From contig JAFPXY010000016.1 in the NCBI GenBank assembly GCA_017394515.1, forward strand, positions 62,001-126,000: a DNA stretch of 64,000 bases, written 5' to 3'. The stretch is from Bacillota bacterium (GTDB lineage Bacteria; Bacillota; Clostridia; Peptostreptococcales; Anaerovoracaceae). Under the pieces are notes generated by a model, which was not told where the DNA came from, ran no database searches, and saw nothing but the letters and a program-made list of their open reading frames with translations. The first letter of the stretch is position 1. The number at the start of each line of letters is the position of its first letter. Made by a program: the position numbers and the translations under genes. This document shows, piece after piece, positions 18,601 to 23,571 of this stretch.

Positions 18601-19527
18601 TTAGTATTCTACCTCCTCATCTGCTCTCAGATCCAAAAGTTCAGGGTTCTCAGCCAGTTTTTTGAAAAGTCTCACGGACTTGGCATAATAGAAGCCGTCC
18701 GCGATTCTTTCATCGATGGTGAGTCCTATGTCATTCATGACCTTCATGGTTACATTGCCCTCCTCATCATAGATGGGCTTCAGCTTTCTCTCGCCTATTA
18801 TCACGAACAATGATGTGGTCCCCCAGTTTGACAGGTGATGATAGCCGGATTTAAGATGAATGGAACCTAAATTTGTAATGAAGGCTGACGCATAGTTGGG
18901 ATCCTTCTTGACAAAGTCATAAGGAACCTTGCCGTGTCTGTCAAGGAAACGGATGAACTTGAATGTAGGTCTCAGAAGGAAGGGTGGAAGCTTCATGAAC
19001 TTGTCCATAATGTCTACGGAATTGTCCAGAGTACTCTCATCCTTTACAGCGTTTATCTCCTTTACGATCTTTTCGTAAAGAATATCCATGGTGGTCTCCG
19101 GTCCGAATTTCTCGAAGGCCAGACCTTCGTCAGCATTATCGGCGAATTTCTTCTTCACCGTGAAGCCTACGCTGACTTCGTCTTTTTGGTAAAGCTTCAT
19201 GTTAGCCACAAAGCGATTGAGGCCCGGTCTCAGATGCATGACCTTCACAAGGGCCATGAGCATGACGTAGAAGGGCTTATACGGATCCTCCAGAGCGCTC
19301 TCGGGGAGCTCGCCTCTCTCTACTTTCGCTTTAAGCTCTGCGTTTTTCTTCTCCACATATTTGAAGATGGGATCCATCTCTATGGATTCCTGGATGAATG
19401 CTTCGTTATCTGCTCTGTTGGGATAGACGTAAGGAACTATGGCGTGCATGGGATCGATATCCCTCATTAGTCTGCCATCACGTCTGTCTCCCCAACGTTT
19501 TTTGGCTTTGTTCTCCTTTTTCCCCAT
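18601..19527 (-). CDS. E2/CAT-like acyltransferase-fold protein without catalytic His
   Basis: 308 residues resembling the catalytic domain of 2-oxoacid dehydrogenase E2 / chloramphenicol acetyltransferase (LRPGLNRFVANMKLYQKD and FITNLGSI blocks align with the E2 core). It has no lipoyl or peripheral-subunit-binding domain, and no dehydrogenase E1/E3 genes are nearby. The HxxxDG catalytic motif reads DERIADG: Glu stands in place of the histidine. Start chosen at the ATG at 19527 because AAAGGAGT lies at 19533-19540; an upstream in-frame extension to 19602 covers the leader. It is the first gene of an operon with an acyl-CoA synthetase. A paralogue lies at 62013-62885. True substrate unknown. 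Confidence 0.8.
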   Translation of the reverse strand: MGKKENKAKKRWGDRRDGRLMRDIDPMHAIVPYVYPNRADNEAFIQESIEMDPIFKYVEKKNAELKAKVERGELPESALEDPYKPFYVMLMALVKVMHLRPGLNRFVANMKLYQKDEVSVGFTVKKKFADNADEGLAFEKFGPETTMDILYEKIVKEINAVKDESTLDNSVDIMDKFMKLPPFLLRPTFKFIRFLDRHGKVPYDFVKKDPNYASAFITNLGSIHLKSGYHHLSNWGTTSLFVIIGERKLKPIYDEEGNVTMKVMNDIGLTIDERIADGFYYAKSVRLFKKLAENPELLDLRADEEVEY

Positions 19528-19590
19528 TAATGACTCCTTTTCGACATTTAGTTGTCGTACTGATTTTATGCATATAAATATACAGTATAT

Positions 19591-19618
19591 ATTATAGCAC
19601 AAAAAAACTGTACTGCAA
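19591..19618 (-). promoter_or_regulatory. Promoter of the E2-like/acyl-CoA synthetase operon
   Basis: Minus-strand -35 TTGCAG (19613-19618), 16-nt spacer, extended -10 TGCTATAAT (hexamer 19591-19596). The -35 lies within the stem of the upstream gene's terminator. Confidence 0.72.
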
Positions 19619-19639
19619 AATGATTTATGGCAGTACAGT
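19601..19639 (-). terminator. Intrinsic terminator of the PstS-like gene
   Basis: Minus-strand 10-bp perfect stem ACTGTACTGC/GCAGTACAGT followed by seven U. It overlaps the -35 and spacer of the next promoter. Confidence 0.88.
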
Positions 19640-19669
19640 TCAATTTTAATGAAATCTTAATATCCGACT

Positions 19670-20626
19670 TCATTCAAGCGCCACGTAACCGCTTTCTTCC
19701 ACTATCTTCTGACCTTCATCTGACAAAATCCACTCTACCAATTTTCTAACATTGGAGTTGTCCTCGTTTTTCCGATAAACCGCAAAAAGATTTGCCACGA
19801 TGGGATAGCTTTCATTTCGTATGTTTTCTTTATTAGGATAAATGCCGTCCAATGCAAGCAGCTTCACTCTGCCGTTCTCTACAATTCCTTCAACGTAATA
19901 TCTGAAGGAAAATCCTATAGGACTGCCCAGTGGTCCCAAGGCGCTCGGATGTACCTCCGTATCCCCCATGACTGACAAAAAAGCTGTCTGGCTTCCACTT
20001 CCCTCATTTCTCTGAGTCGCATGTATCAGCCTGTCCTCTCCTCCCAGCTCCTTCCAGTTGGTGATCTTTCCGGAATAGATGCCTTTGAGTTCATCTAGGG
20101 TGATATCGTCAACAGGGTTACTGCCGTTAACCAGGAAAACGAAAGCTTCACGGCCTATAGGCACGAATTCCAGCTCGACTCCATTGTCAGCAGCATATTT
20201 AAGCTGCTCTTCAGAGGGCTTAGCGACAAAGATTAGGTCGCAGTCGCCGTCCACTATCCTTTGATAAGCACCTCTTGTGTTGGTATACTGAAGCGCACTT
20301 TCTTCCGTGAAGGTGCCGCTCGCCTCGTCATAGATTATTGACTCCTCAGGATATACTGATGCTGCAAAAGCCGAGTAAACCGGAAAGAGTGCCGCTGCTC
20401 CGTCCAGCACAGGAAGATCTCCTTCAAGCTTCATTTCCGTGTCCATCCTTACGATCTTCGAGTCATCATCGAAAGGCAGGTATTCGGATACCTCCACCGA
20501 CTTTGCCTGCATCTCGGGTGAGGTGCTGTTTATAAAGTTTTTTGTAAAATTGAAATATATCCCCAGATCCAAAACCACGAAAGCCGCCCCTAAGATGACC
20601 AGGGAAACGATCTGTTTCTTAGTCAT
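19670..20626 (-). CDS. PstS-like substrate-binding protein, membrane-anchored
   Basis: 318 residues. An N-terminal hydrophobic segment (about 7-27) without a lipobox acts as signal or anchor; the rest is a type II periplasmic-binding fold of the phosphate-binding (PstS) kind: LDGAAALFPVYSAFA near residue 75, GDCDLIFVAKPSEEQ near 127, and the anion-loop region RNEGSGSQTAFL near 205. No PstC/A/B permease or ATPase genes are adjacent; instead it closes an operon with an XRE regulator and two small membrane proteins. It may therefore be a sensor or scavenging protein rather than part of a local transporter. Start ATG at 20626, following AAGGGGTGAAGAC. Confidence 0.85.
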   Translation of the reverse strand: MTKKQIVSLVILGAAFVVLDLGIYFNFTKNFINSTSPEMQAKSVEVSEYLPFDDDSKIVRMDTEMKLEGDLPVLDGAAALFPVYSAFAASVYPEESIIYDEASGTFTEESALQYTNTRGAYQRIVDGDCDLIFVAKPSEEQLKYAADNGVELEFVPIGREAFVFLVNGSNPVDDITLDELKGIYSGKITNWKELGGEDRLIHATQRNEGSGSQTAFLSVMGDTEVHPSALGPLGSPIGFSFRYYVEGIVENGRVKLLALDGIYPNKENIRNESYPIVANLFAVYRKNEDNSNVRKLVEWILSDEGQKIVEESGYVALE

Positions 20627-20630
20627 GTCT

Positions 20631-20768
20631 TCACCCCTTGTTCGCTATGTATGATATTATTGAGCAATGGTCATGGAGATATATGGTGTATGCGGTAAGC
20701 GCAACGAGACTCAATGTCCCCAGCACGAGCACCGCAAAAAACAATCTATTAAATGTTTTATTGTTCAT
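20631..20768 (-). CDS. 45-residue single-span membrane protein
   Basis: ATG at 20766-20768 preceded by GGGGGATTGAG; stop TGA at 20631-20633, 4 nt before the PstS-like start. The product begins MNNKTFNRLFFAVLVLG and has one hydrophobic helix at about 9-31 (LFFAVLVLGTLSLVALTAY), then a short His/Cys-containing polar tail (HDHCS). Its position between two coding genes in the same direction with tight spacing and its own Shine-Dalgarno support a real gene. Function unknown; a partner or anchor of the neighbouring PstS-like protein is a guess. Confidence 0.72.
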   Translation of the reverse strand: MNNKTFNRLFFAVLVLGTLSLVALTAYTIYLHDHCSIISYIANKG

Positions 20769-20778
20769 CTCAATCCCC

Positions 20779-21036
20779 CTACATGAACATGAAGCCGTTT
20801 TGCAAAGCTATAAACAACGCGATAGCACAAACCGCAAATACGATCAATACCGTCACCTCTGTTTTAATCTTACTTTTGAGAAGGATACTTTGTTCTTCTG
20901 AGACGCCCTCTTTGTCTTTAAGCTTGATGGAATTACTGACGATTCCTATGATCATTGCGACCGGGATCACAACAGCCAGCAAAGGCCCGCCGTAAACTAT
21001 TATCATCAAAACTAACATTCCCAAAAAATCCAACAT
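20779..21036 (-). CDS. Small two-span membrane protein
   Basis: 85 residues, family not recognised. Two hydrophobic helices (about 4-33, LVLMIIVYGGPLLAVVIPVA region, and about 61-83, VTVLIVFAVCAIALFIALQ) flank a charged cytoplasmic-type loop with Lys/Glu. The start codon directly follows the stop of the XRE regulator (TAAATG), which indicates translational coupling. Second gene of the cassette. Confidence 0.78.
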   Translation of the reverse strand: MLDFLGMLVLMIIVYGGPLLAVVIPVAMIIGIVSNSIKLKDKEGVSEEQSILLKSKIKTEVTVLIVFAVCAIALFIALQNGFMFM

Positions 21037-21492
21037 TTACCTCACCTTCCTTAATCCCTCCAAGTACTCCATAACCTCATTTTTATCGAAGGATGAAAAC
21101 AGCCTTCGGTCTTCGCTGTCCAAAATACGGTAATGCTGAGAAATGATATTCTGCTGCACCACATATCCATCTGCCTCTTGAACAATCTTCCACCAGATCT
21201 TACCACCCATAGTCATAGGATAATCCACCTTAATATCCTTGAAAGCCAGAGCTCTTACCATATCTGATGCTTCTCCCCCGAATTCATTTTGTATAACGTT
21301 GCTCCCACTGAAAATAGTTATCAGGCAAGCCGTCTCTGTCCATCCAATGCTGCGCCTGCCTTTCTCACTCTCTACAAGGGTCTTCTTTGAGATTCCGAGT
21401 ATCGCTGCCATTTCATCCTGTGTAAGCCCGTATTCTGTTCTGATCAGTTTGAGTATTTTATTGCATTTATCAACAAATTCATTTCTATCCAT
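21037..21492 (-). CDS. XRE-family transcriptional regulator
   Basis: 151 residues. N-terminal Cro/C1-type helix-turn-helix at about 12-50 (EYGLTQDEMAAILGISKK, then TLVESEKGRRS) followed by a C-terminal region of unknown fold (about 75-151) containing WWKIVQEADGYVVQQN and ISQHYRILDSEDRRLFSSF. First gene of a four-gene operon. A 16-bp perfect palindrome overlaps the -10 of its promoter, so autorepression is likely. What signal the C-terminal part senses is not visible; the PstS-like protein in the operon suggests an extracellular small anion or ligand. Confidence 0.88.
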   Translation of the reverse strand: MDRNEFVDKCNKILKLIRTEYGLTQDEMAAILGISKKTLVESEKGRRSIGWTETACLITIFSGSNVIQNEFGGEASDMVRALAFKDIKVDYPMTMGGKIWWKIVQEADGYVVQQNIISQHYRILDSEDRRLFSSFDKNEVMEYLEGLRKVR

Positions 21493-21517
21493 GATGATTT
21501 CTCCATCGCTTTATTAT

Positions 21518-21533
21518 AGTGTAATTTTACACT
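21518..21533. promoter_or_regulatory. Palindromic operator over the XRE operon -10
   Basis: AGTGTAATTTTACACT is a perfect 16-bp inverted repeat and covers the -10 hexamer at 21524-21529, a position typical of autorepression by the downstream XRE protein (inference). Confidence 0.75.
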
Positions 21534-21552
21534 TTTTATTATGTTTTGTCAA
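21524..21552 (-). promoter_or_regulatory. Sigma-A promoter of the XRE/PstS-like operon
   Basis: Minus-strand -35 TTGACA (21547-21552), 17-nt spacer, -10 TAAAAT (21524-21529). Confidence 0.78.
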
Positions 21553-21591
21553 TATTTCTAGGAATTTTCGTTCAACTTTTCTTTTGCGAAT

Positions 21592-21617
21592 AAAAAAGGA
21601 CCGTCTTTCGACGGCCC
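21592..21617 (-). terminator. Intrinsic terminator of the pot operon
   Basis: Minus-strand stem GGGCCGTC/GACGGTCC (GAAA tetraloop) followed by six U, 8 nt past the potCD stop codon. Confidence 0.92.
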
Positions 21618-21624
21618 CGCAACT

Positions 21625-23571
21625 TTATCTTTGTGATTTGAACTCTTTCCAGTACTTGGAGTACATGTCGTCGCCCTCGGGTCCCAGGTTCTGCAGGGTC
21701 TCGCATCTAGCCAGCACGTCCTCGGGCGGGTTCACGATCTCGATCTCAGAGAGTACTCGAGGTCCTTCGATGTAGTCCTCATATTCGTAATCCTCTAACT
21801 GAGTATTGGGAATAGCGTAGGTCAGGTACTCGAAGTTGGCCACTGCCGCGTCATAGGAGTACATGAAGTCGATCCAGGCCATGGCTCCGTCGTAGTTCTT
21901 ACAGGACTTGGGCACTGCCCAGCAGTCCGTCCAAACTTCCGTTCCTTCCTTAGGTACCACGTAAGCCAGGTTCTCGTTATCCTCCTGAGCGTAGAGCACG
22001 TCGCCTGAAGTGATGACAGCCATGGATGCGTTGTCGCCTATCATCAGGTCTCTGGCGTTATCGTTTGCATAGGAGTACACCAGAGGTTTCTGCTCGATGA
22101 GCTTGTCCGTGATGGCTTTCATTTCATTCTCGTCAGTGGTATTCATGGAATAGCCAAGGAGTTTAGCAGCCACCATGTCAGCCTCGCGGATGGAATTGGG
22201 CATGATGACCTTGCCGGCGTACTTCTTATCCCAAAGTATGCCCCAGGAAACGTCGCCAGCGAAATCAGCCTCATCTACCAGTTCTTTATTGTAGATAATG
22301 CCGTAGGTGCCCCAGGTATGAGGTGCTGAATAGAACATGCCCGGGTCGAAGTCTTCCATGAAGTCACGGATGTTTTGCGAAAGGAACTGTATGTTCGGTA
22401 TCTTGGTGAACTCCAGCTCCATGAGAAGGTCTTCCTTGATGAGCTTATCTATCATGTAGTCCGACGCGCAGATCACGTCGTAGTCGGCAGTGTTGTTCTT
22501 TACTACCGGGTACATTTCTTCATTGGTATCGAAATAATCGCAAACTACTGTGTAACCAGTCTCCTCATAGAAGGCGTCCACCAGTTCAGGATCTATATAG
22601 TCTCCGAAGTTATATACGTATACAACGCCCTTCTCTCCCACTTCTCCGGGAGTGGAAGGAGTGAACCTGATGGCCACAGCCATGGCTACGACGATAGCGA
22701 GGATGATGGCCAAAGTCTTTTTGGTGGACATACCGCCCTTGTAGACGTATTCTTTGCCGGATTTAGCGGCCTTTCTGGCCTCTTCCTCCTCGTCTCCCTT
22801 AAGGAAGTTGGAAACCACCAGTACCAGAAGCACGATGACAAAGATCACCGTGGAAAGCGCAAATAACGTAGGTCTGACACCGATCTTCAGCTGGCTGTAG
22901 ATCAAAGTCGACAGGGTGTTGATTCCCGCGCCTCTAGTGAAGTGAGTGATGACGAAATCATCTACGGACATGGTGAAGCTCAGTAGGAAACCTGAAACTA
23001 TGCCCGGCATGATGTCCGGCAGCACCACCTTGAAGAAGGCGTATAAAGGCGAAGCTCCCAGATCCAGCGCAGCCTCATAGGTGTGGTTCTCCAGCTGCTT
23101 GAACTTGGGCATGACGCTCAGTATTACATAGGGAATACAGAAGGTCACATGGGCAAATAATACCGTCCCGTAGTTCAAGGAAATGCCGAAAAGCAGGAAG
23201 CTCATCATGATGGAGATACCGGTTACGATATCAGCGTTAAGAAGCGGGATGTTGTTCAATCCCATGAAGATGCTTCTCTTCCTGTCCGTCATGGCACTCA
23301 TGGCAATGCAGGCCATAACGCCGATGACCGTGGCGATGATGCTGGCCCAGAGAGCTATGGTCAGGGTATTTCCCAGAGCCTCCATGAGCTCATCGTTGGT
23401 GAACATCTCTTTGTACCACTTAAGGCTGAAGCCCTGCCAGGAAGTCATGGATTTCGATGAGTTGAAACTCAGCACCATGAGAGTCCCGATGGGCAGGTAC
23501 AGGAAGAGCACGATCACGATGAGGTAAAGCACTTTTATTAATTTGTTAAGTCCGAAAGAGGTGTTTTTCAT
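21625..23571 (-). CDS. potCD: Fused polyamine ABC permease / substrate-binding protein (PotC-PotD)
   Basis: 648 residues combining two subunits of the spermidine/putrescine importer. Residues 1-265 are a PotC-type permease with six hydrophobic segments and the EAA loop EAALDLGASPLYAFFKVVLP. A charged linker leads to an extra membrane segment (about 287-305, TLAIILAIVVAMAVAIRF), and residues 318-648 are a PotD-type binding protein (VYVYNFGDYIDPELVDAFYE start, GMFYSAPHTWGTYGIIYNKE, WTDCWAVPKS). The fusion tethers the binding domain on the outer face. Start overlaps potB by 4 nt. Fused PotCD proteins are known in Firmicutes. Confidence 0.95.
   Translation of the reverse strand: MKNTSFGLNKLIKVLYLIVIVLFLYLPIGTLMVLSFNSSKSMTSWQGFSLKWYKEMFTNDELMEALGNTLTIALWASIIATVIGVMACIAMSAMTDRKRSIFMGLNNIPLLNADIVTGISIMMSFLLFGISLNYGTVLFAHVTFCIPYVILSVMPKFKQLENHTYEAALDLGASPLYAFFKVVLPDIMPGIVSGFLLSFTMSVDDFVITHFTRGAGINTLSTLIYSQLKIGVRPTLFALSTVIFVIVLLVLVVSNFLKGDEEEEARKAAKSGKEYVYKGGMSTKKTLAIILAIVVAMAVAIRFTPSTPGEVGEKGVVYVYNFGDYIDPELVDAFYEETGYTVVCDYFDTNEEMYPVVKNNTADYDVICASDYMIDKLIKEDLLMELEFTKIPNIQFLSQNIRDFMEDFDPGMFYSAPHTWGTYGIIYNKELVDEADFAGDVSWGILWDKKYAGKVIMPNSIREADMVAAKLLGYSMNTTDENEMKAITDKLIEQKPLVYSYANDNARDLMIGDNASMAVITSGDVLYAQEDNENLAYVVPKEGTEVWTDCWAVPKSCKNYDGAMAWIDFMYSYDAAVANFEYLTYAIPNTQLEDYEYEDYIEGPRVLSEIEIVNPPEDVLARCETLQNLGPEGDDMYSKYWKEFKSQR

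Follow-up and report, generated by a model that had tools for sequence, protein, structure and literature searches.

PstS is the phosphate-binding lipoprotein of the Pst ABC transporter, and PstS-type binding proteins are, as a matter of routine, labelled as components of phosphate ABC transporters. In the CylR1/CylR2 pair of Enterococcus faecalis, an HTH repressor acts at a promoter and is adjoined by a small membrane protein, as described in PMC3709268. The cassette described here, found in a stretch of 64,000 nucleotides (the window), is like each of these systems in some features and unlike it in others. The first-pass annotation knew of no named system with this composition, and a search of an open-licence PMC library gave none either, nor a description of the cassette, of its operator string or of a transporter-free membrane PstS class.

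Layout and boundaries of the cassette

The four genes of the cassette lie on the minus strand in the order XRE regulator, two-span protein, one-span protein and anchored PstS-like protein (Table 1), and all four open reading frames are confirmed. The gaps between them are, in this order, 0, 10 and 4 nt, as expected from the tight packing described in the first-pass annotation, and the cassette has one promoter and one terminator-like hairpin. The absence of permease and ATPase genes from the cassette, also claimed there, is borne out when considering its four genes, and so is the single promoter whose -10 lies inside a palindrome. The palindrome itself is not the perfect 16-bp one that had been described; AGTGTAATTTTACACT is symmetrical at 14 of 16 positions, with arms of 7 bp around a TT centre.

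Table 1. Features of the cassette and its boundaries, with positions in the window.
Feature	Positions	Strand	Remarks
Segment without match in both same-genus genomes	19515..21638	.	GC 0.424 vs 0.477 for the window
Terminator-like hairpin followed by T run; downstream boundary	19605..19641	-	12-bp stem, z -2.57
Membrane-anchored PstS-like binding protein, 318 aa, without lipobox	19670..20626	-	
One-span membrane protein, 45 aa, conserved C-terminal SI(I/V)..I motif	20631..20768	-	
Two-span membrane protein, 85 aa, basic loop between the spans	20779..21036	-	Positional counterparts in 10 other loci
XRE regulator, 151 aa; HTH about residues 11-49, conserved C-terminal domain about 93-151	21037..21492	-	
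Predicted operator, 7-bp arms and 2-bp centre, includes the -10	21518..21533	.	Comparative
Promoter TTGACA-N17-TAAAAT, consensus match 11/12	21524..21552	-	Equal spacing in 44/61 XRE loci with exact operator
Terminator-like hairpin, end of upstream ABC operon; upstream boundary	21597..21618	-	

The host genome is assembled as 2.14 Mb in 64 contigs (completeness 94%). The two available genomes of the same genus, G019 and G102, have the genes that flank the cassette about 140-150 bp apart, and neither the XRE protein nor the PstS-like protein finds a match in either genome. Two genes that are neighbours in each congener are separated here by 2.1 kb of inserted DNA, the cassette, whose absence from the congeners makes it an accessory unit in the genus; either this genome gained it or the two others lost it. 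Upstream of it, at 21625-23571, a single ORF of 648 residues combines BPD_transp_1 and SBP_bac_8, an ABC permease fused to an extracellular binding protein, and this fused ORF is kept in both congeners.

A sharp insertion of this size with lower GC, a regulator that is probably self-repressing and tiny hydrophobic proteins are features that a mobile selfish or stress module would also have, for example a toxin-antitoxin or defence unit with the small proteins as toxins under XRE control. When compared with PADLOC, the XRE protein gives weak matches (HTH_VI and Control_protein), which agree with such a module, but the other three proteins give none and the antitoxin models score far below their cut-offs. 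No recognised toxin is seen beside the XRE gene, and neither small protein matches NCBIfam (over cut-off), PADLOC or PHROGs; in PHROGs the XRE matches are weak as well, and confined to the HTH part. A large conserved binding protein is not known to have a place in toxin-antitoxin units, and we regard this explanation as highly improbable.

The PstS-like protein and its small membrane partners

The fold of the PstS-like protein is of the PstS type, with phosphate-binding proteins as the best PDB matches (Foldseek, 4gd5, E 5.8e-19), and by both sequence and fold the closest solved relatives are clostridial phosphate-binding proteins (model pLDDT 85). It matches Pfam PBP_like_2 with 83.9 bits (cut-off 27) and scores 106.2 bits against the curated PstS family TIGR02136, below the cut-off of 206.6. 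Its N-terminus has one hydrophobic helix and no lipobox cysteine. Clustering with transporter-linked PstS proteins was checked and is not seen: of the 70 rows of a tree, the 19 that are transporter-linked PstS proteins form a clade of their own (100/100) and the stand-alone proteins form another (100/100), inside which four of the 11 trio proteins (encoded together with a two-span and a one-span protein) are one clade (100/99). This tree omits the truncated PstS ORF of L277; the HMM of the PstS-like family left out proteins of 520 residues or more.

In the ligand loop, the transporter-linked PstS proteins have RE/D.GSGTR or a sequence close to it, and nearly all stand-alone proteins have R...SGSQ or a sequence close to it; the window protein has GSGSQ, not GSGTR. 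As regards phosphate binding, the arginine and SGS of the loop are retained, and counterparts of the E. coli PstS residues D56 and T10 are apparently missing. The first ligand loop reads DGAAAL in all 11 trio proteins and DGATAL in most fused relatives, in which the membrane spans are part of the PstS-like protein; DGAAA is also present in 10 of the 29 other class-level relatives. It is possible that the ligand differs from phosphate. Since the clade is set apart from the transporters by tree, motif, anchoring and neighbourhood, the phosphate-transporter labels are probably wrong for it.

There is no pstC, pstA or pstB gene beside the window gene, and no Pst permease gene is seen beside the 29 other class-level relatives in the maps read. 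PstB and PstC over their curated cut-offs are both present in seven other genomes tested and are not found in the present genome (G000), G019, G102, G119, G067 and G289; the best scores in the present genome are 168 bits for PstB (vs 343.2) and 45.9 bits for PstC (vs 196.45), in an assembly that is 94% complete, such that incompleteness may account for part of the absence. Three genomes that carry PstS-like proteins (G110, G128 and G123) encode a complete Pst system elsewhere, and three other carriers (G000, G119 and G067) have no Pst permease or ATPase over cut-off. As Pst is present in some carriers and missing in others, the presence of the anchored protein does not track the transporter. 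A role as an additional binding protein, supplying phosphate or a similar ion to an ABC permease from another locus, would be consistent with the PstS-like fold and with the carriers that have a full Pst system, but not with the carriers that lack one, nor with the separate clade and the anchoring in the membrane (by 3-7 spans in relatives), and is improbable when all this is considered. The claim that the cassette is not a transporter has held up, on the separate clade, the motif and the missing permease and ATPase, and as judged from these comparisons it would be wrong to see the PstS-like protein as a displaced component of a transporter.

Another transporter-free arrangement of PstS-like proteins, common in the family Anaerovoracaceae, is a pairing with a DUF3298 protein. 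In L086, L087, L089, L090, L092-L097, L099 and others, a stand-alone PstS-like lipoprotein is followed by a lipoprotein of about 540 residues, which has a DUF3298 domain in the two that were scanned, and in L162 and L167 the two parts are found in one protein.

The trio of two-span, one-span and PstS-like genes is found in 11 loci, each in a different genome and the window included, as shown when tallying the window, L201, L082, L083 and the seven best class-level relatives of the PstS-like protein. An XRE gene stands in front in five of them (the window, L201, L330, L332 and L333) and is not nearby in the other six. A first pass through the family found the one-span protein in L082 and L083 only, and the class-level search showed a wider spread: 43 of 291 genomes match the PstS-like protein (E <= 1e-30), and at all seven of the best matches after the window's own the one-span gene is directly upstream (HMM E 4e-17 to 2e-9) and is itself preceded by a two-span gene. 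Three of these seven (L330, L332 and L333) also have the XRE gene and its operator. The complete four-gene order, with XRE and operator, is seen in L201 (Clostridiales, yak rumen), and a one-span relative precedes the PstS-like gene without XRE in G123 and G067. In L330 and L332 there are two two-span genes (77 and 89 residues) between the XRE and the one-span gene, probably generated by duplication. A chance cluster of unrelated genes, which was considered as well, is ruled out by the trio in 11 genomes, including all seven nearest class-level relatives. Thus, when considering whether the genes are found apart in relatives, the trio recurs as a unit, but six of the 11 trios have no XRE nearby, and a downstream PstS-like gene is missing at 90 of 108 XRE loci.

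The one-span proteins have a C-terminal SI(I/V)..I stretch in common, in which the third place is I/V or L. The two-span proteins share little beyond the basic loop and, mostly, a final methionine; their counterparts are too divergent for a sequence search (best E 0.0025 outside the own genome among 148 family genomes) and were identified by position. The two microproteins are conserved, have no family match in the libraries searched and are candidate partners of the PstS-like protein.

The PstS-like domain is preceded by 3-7 predicted spans (own hydropathy script, 19-residue window, mean >= 1.6) in 25 of the 29 other class-level relatives; no lipobox is found in any of the 29 with the pattern used, and XRE is absent at all 29 loci. 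The spans are either fused to the PstS-like domain or encoded beside it, such that a membrane bundle seems to be needed; the comparison suggests that this bundle is a required part, the functional equivalence of fused spans and small proteins resting on position and span count. The possibility that the small proteins are split-off spans of the fused forms was rejected, as profile comparison detects no kinship, and the analogy is kept as a positional one.

The XRE regulator and its operator

The HTH part of the XRE protein is ordinary (Pfam HTH_3 25.8 bits, cut-off 23), and all 46 relatives scanned match HTH models (Pfam, E <= 0.5), with nothing else recurrent in Pfam. The C-terminal domain has no Pfam match, and the structure model (mean pLDDT 90.4) gives it four strands and one helix; G96, G97, W100, W101, Q113, N115, H120 and R122 are invariant in every row of two alignments. 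The rows of the fold searches (Foldseek, VIA-align) are filled by the HTH part. One structure, 6d7k_D, the inhibitory subunit of methane monooxygenase, covers residues 100-151 (rmsd 1.9, 51 aligned) with Z 6.3, a value that the tool classes as common, and is given no weight here.

XRE relatives are found in 21 of 148 family genomes (E <= 1e-3), with matches below 1e-25 in 13 of them, including that of the window, in 24 of 198 genomes of the order (E <= 1e-8) and in at least 564 stretches of a named genome collection. The comparison covers 108 distinct XRE loci, after removal of 7 duplicates; those from the named collection are the best-scoring 80 of the at least 564 relatives, and the counts lean to the close kin of the window XRE.

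The exact operator core is present upstream in 61 of the 108 loci and missing in 47. In 44 of the 61, the hexamer within the operator is preceded, at a distance of exactly 17 nt, by a -35 hexamer with at least 5 of 6 matches (27 of the 44 perfect), and each other spacing from 8 to 29 nt is seen in 0-4 loci; this fixed spacing shows that the operator is built onto the -10. Promoter-like matches as a class are no commoner in the sequence than in shuffles (4 vs 4.3), and therefore the promoter call rests on conservation elsewhere. The operator core GTGTAAWWTTACAC has exactly one copy in the host genome and its reversed control none. In 18 XRE-bearing genomes, chosen by hand and not at random, it is present at the XRE start in 16 and, in 14 of these 16, nowhere else; the reversed pattern is absent from all 18. 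The exceptions are G119, with one site away from XRE, G155 with none, G209 with two and G227 with thirteen. The copies in G227 are mostly GTGTAAATTTACAC, one of them at the XRE gene, and another regulon in this genome may use a site similar to the XRE operator. In G106 (L084, 8643-8677), TGTAATTTTACA is found 23 nt upstream of a fused PstS-like gene without an adjoining XRE, and no XRE is found in this genome; it is possible that the switch was lost and the 12-bp core of its operator left behind.

A predicted palindromic operator, identified by comparison, is thus located at the promoter of the XRE gene itself. Its position on the -10 and its single copy in the genome suggest that the four-gene operon is repressed by the XRE protein that it encodes, and that it is very probably the only target of this protein; the simplest reading of this geometry is that RNA polymerase would be blocked at the promoter. 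With one operator, at a predicted site, and a C-terminal domain that is a candidate for ligand binding, the XRE family can be described as a compact switch.

PstS-like proteins are the commonest family among the downstream neighbours of XRE in the 108 loci (18), followed by a 4-span protein of about 160 residues (11), an alpha/beta hydrolase (8), a 6-span protein of 156 residues (6), DUF2157 (5) and others. In at least 5 of the 90 loci without a downstream PstS-like gene, less than 300 nt of downstream sequence is available. The 4-span proteins (in L242, L212, L230, L256 and others) have an LYN..FP.W motif, and the one member scanned has no Pfam match. On the XRE tree, from which L222 was left out, the PstS-like label changes 8 times, at least 4 of these changes being forced by well-supported branches, and the neighbour labels are clustered (27 changes in total vs 53.7 in shuffles). 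The XRE protein looks like a local switch that can be swapped between genes: it has become coupled to PstS-like genes more than once, and also to unrelated ones.

The main rival explanation is a unit similar to CylR1/CylR2, in which ligand on the PstS-like protein would cause the cytoplasmic basic loop of the membrane bundle to hold or release XRE, and the cassette would report a ligand from outside the cell. It is in agreement with the place of PstS-like genes among the XRE neighbours, with the 4-nt overlap of the XRE and PstS-like frames in several loci, and with the repeated origin of the pairing; PMC3709268 describes the CylR2 repressor as requiring CylR1, a suspected membrane protein, for induction by an outside signal. 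It is less easily reconciled with the PstS-like genes that have no XRE, in 6 of 11 trio loci and all 29 other class-level loci, or with the XRE proteins that keep the invariant C-terminal residues before alpha/beta hydrolase and radical SAM genes. The C-terminal domain is kept whatever the neighbour; this is more in line with a switch that works independently than with one that serves the PstS-like protein as its output, and the CylR1/CylR2-like explanation is rather unlikely. The interpretation in the first-pass annotation is supported in part: the conserved cassette that is no transporter stands, but XRE and trio are often apart, so that the proposed sensing or signalling unit is possible and a swappable switch fits better.

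Proposed working and comparison with known systems

On the sequence evidence, the cassette is real and beyond chance: the operator core is single in the genome and the gene order is repeated in other genomes, of gut-type bacteria. Our preferred reading, to which we give a probability of about one in two, is that it is an insulated, self-limiting unit, repressed locally, whose product would be a membrane receptor or scavenger that works without a transporter, probably for an oxyanionic ligand. In this mechanism, XRE would act at the operator and -10 to block RNA polymerase and repress its own four genes until a cue, probably intracellular, is read by its C-terminal domain and the repression is lifted. 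The three membrane proteins would then be made together and assemble into one complex, in which the two-span and one-span proteins would make up a small bundle within the membrane, and the positive residues at the N-terminus of the PstS-like protein suggest that its binding domain would be on the outer face of the membrane. There it would capture an oxyanion-like ligand via the R...SGS loop, without any ABC permease, and XRE would be a swappable local switch rather than a dedicated messenger of the PstS-like protein. More tentatively, and with somewhat less confidence than for the cassette itself, we suggest an unnamed and widespread class in Clostridia and Erysipelotrichia, in which a PstS-type domain on a bundle (3-7 fused spans, or two conserved microproteins with lengths near 45 and 85 residues) would sense or capture an oxyanion-like ligand at the membrane, and which would have come repeatedly under the control of an XRE switch with a unique operator at the -10.

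When compared with PstS of the Gram-positive type (PDB entries 4gd5 and 4q8r), the cassette protein has the fold and the ligand-loop R, S and G in common, but it has no lipobox, permease or ATPase, belongs to a separate clade, has SGSQ for GSGTR and has small membrane partners. The nearest large sister group, in which PstS-like lipoproteins of this bacterial family are paired with DUF3298 lipoproteins, is equally free of a transporter; its members are lipoproteins without XRE or small membrane proteins in the maps read, whereas the cassette has both. As for the restriction-modification controller (C) proteins and other self-regulating XRE proteins, the HTH fold and the probable control of the own promoter are shared with the cassette regulator; unlike in the controller systems, there are no restriction-modification genes, the operator is on the -10 and there is an extra C-terminal domain. 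CylR2 is a bare HTH protein, not known to carry an effector domain, and its chain 1utx, of 66 residues, is among the structure matches of XRE. The cassette resembles CylR1/CylR2 in that an HTH gene adjoins the gene of a small membrane protein, with repression by XRE as the predicted counterpart, and differs from it in the additional C-terminal domain of XRE, which extends to about residue 150, and in the membrane part, which is a trio that includes a binding protein.
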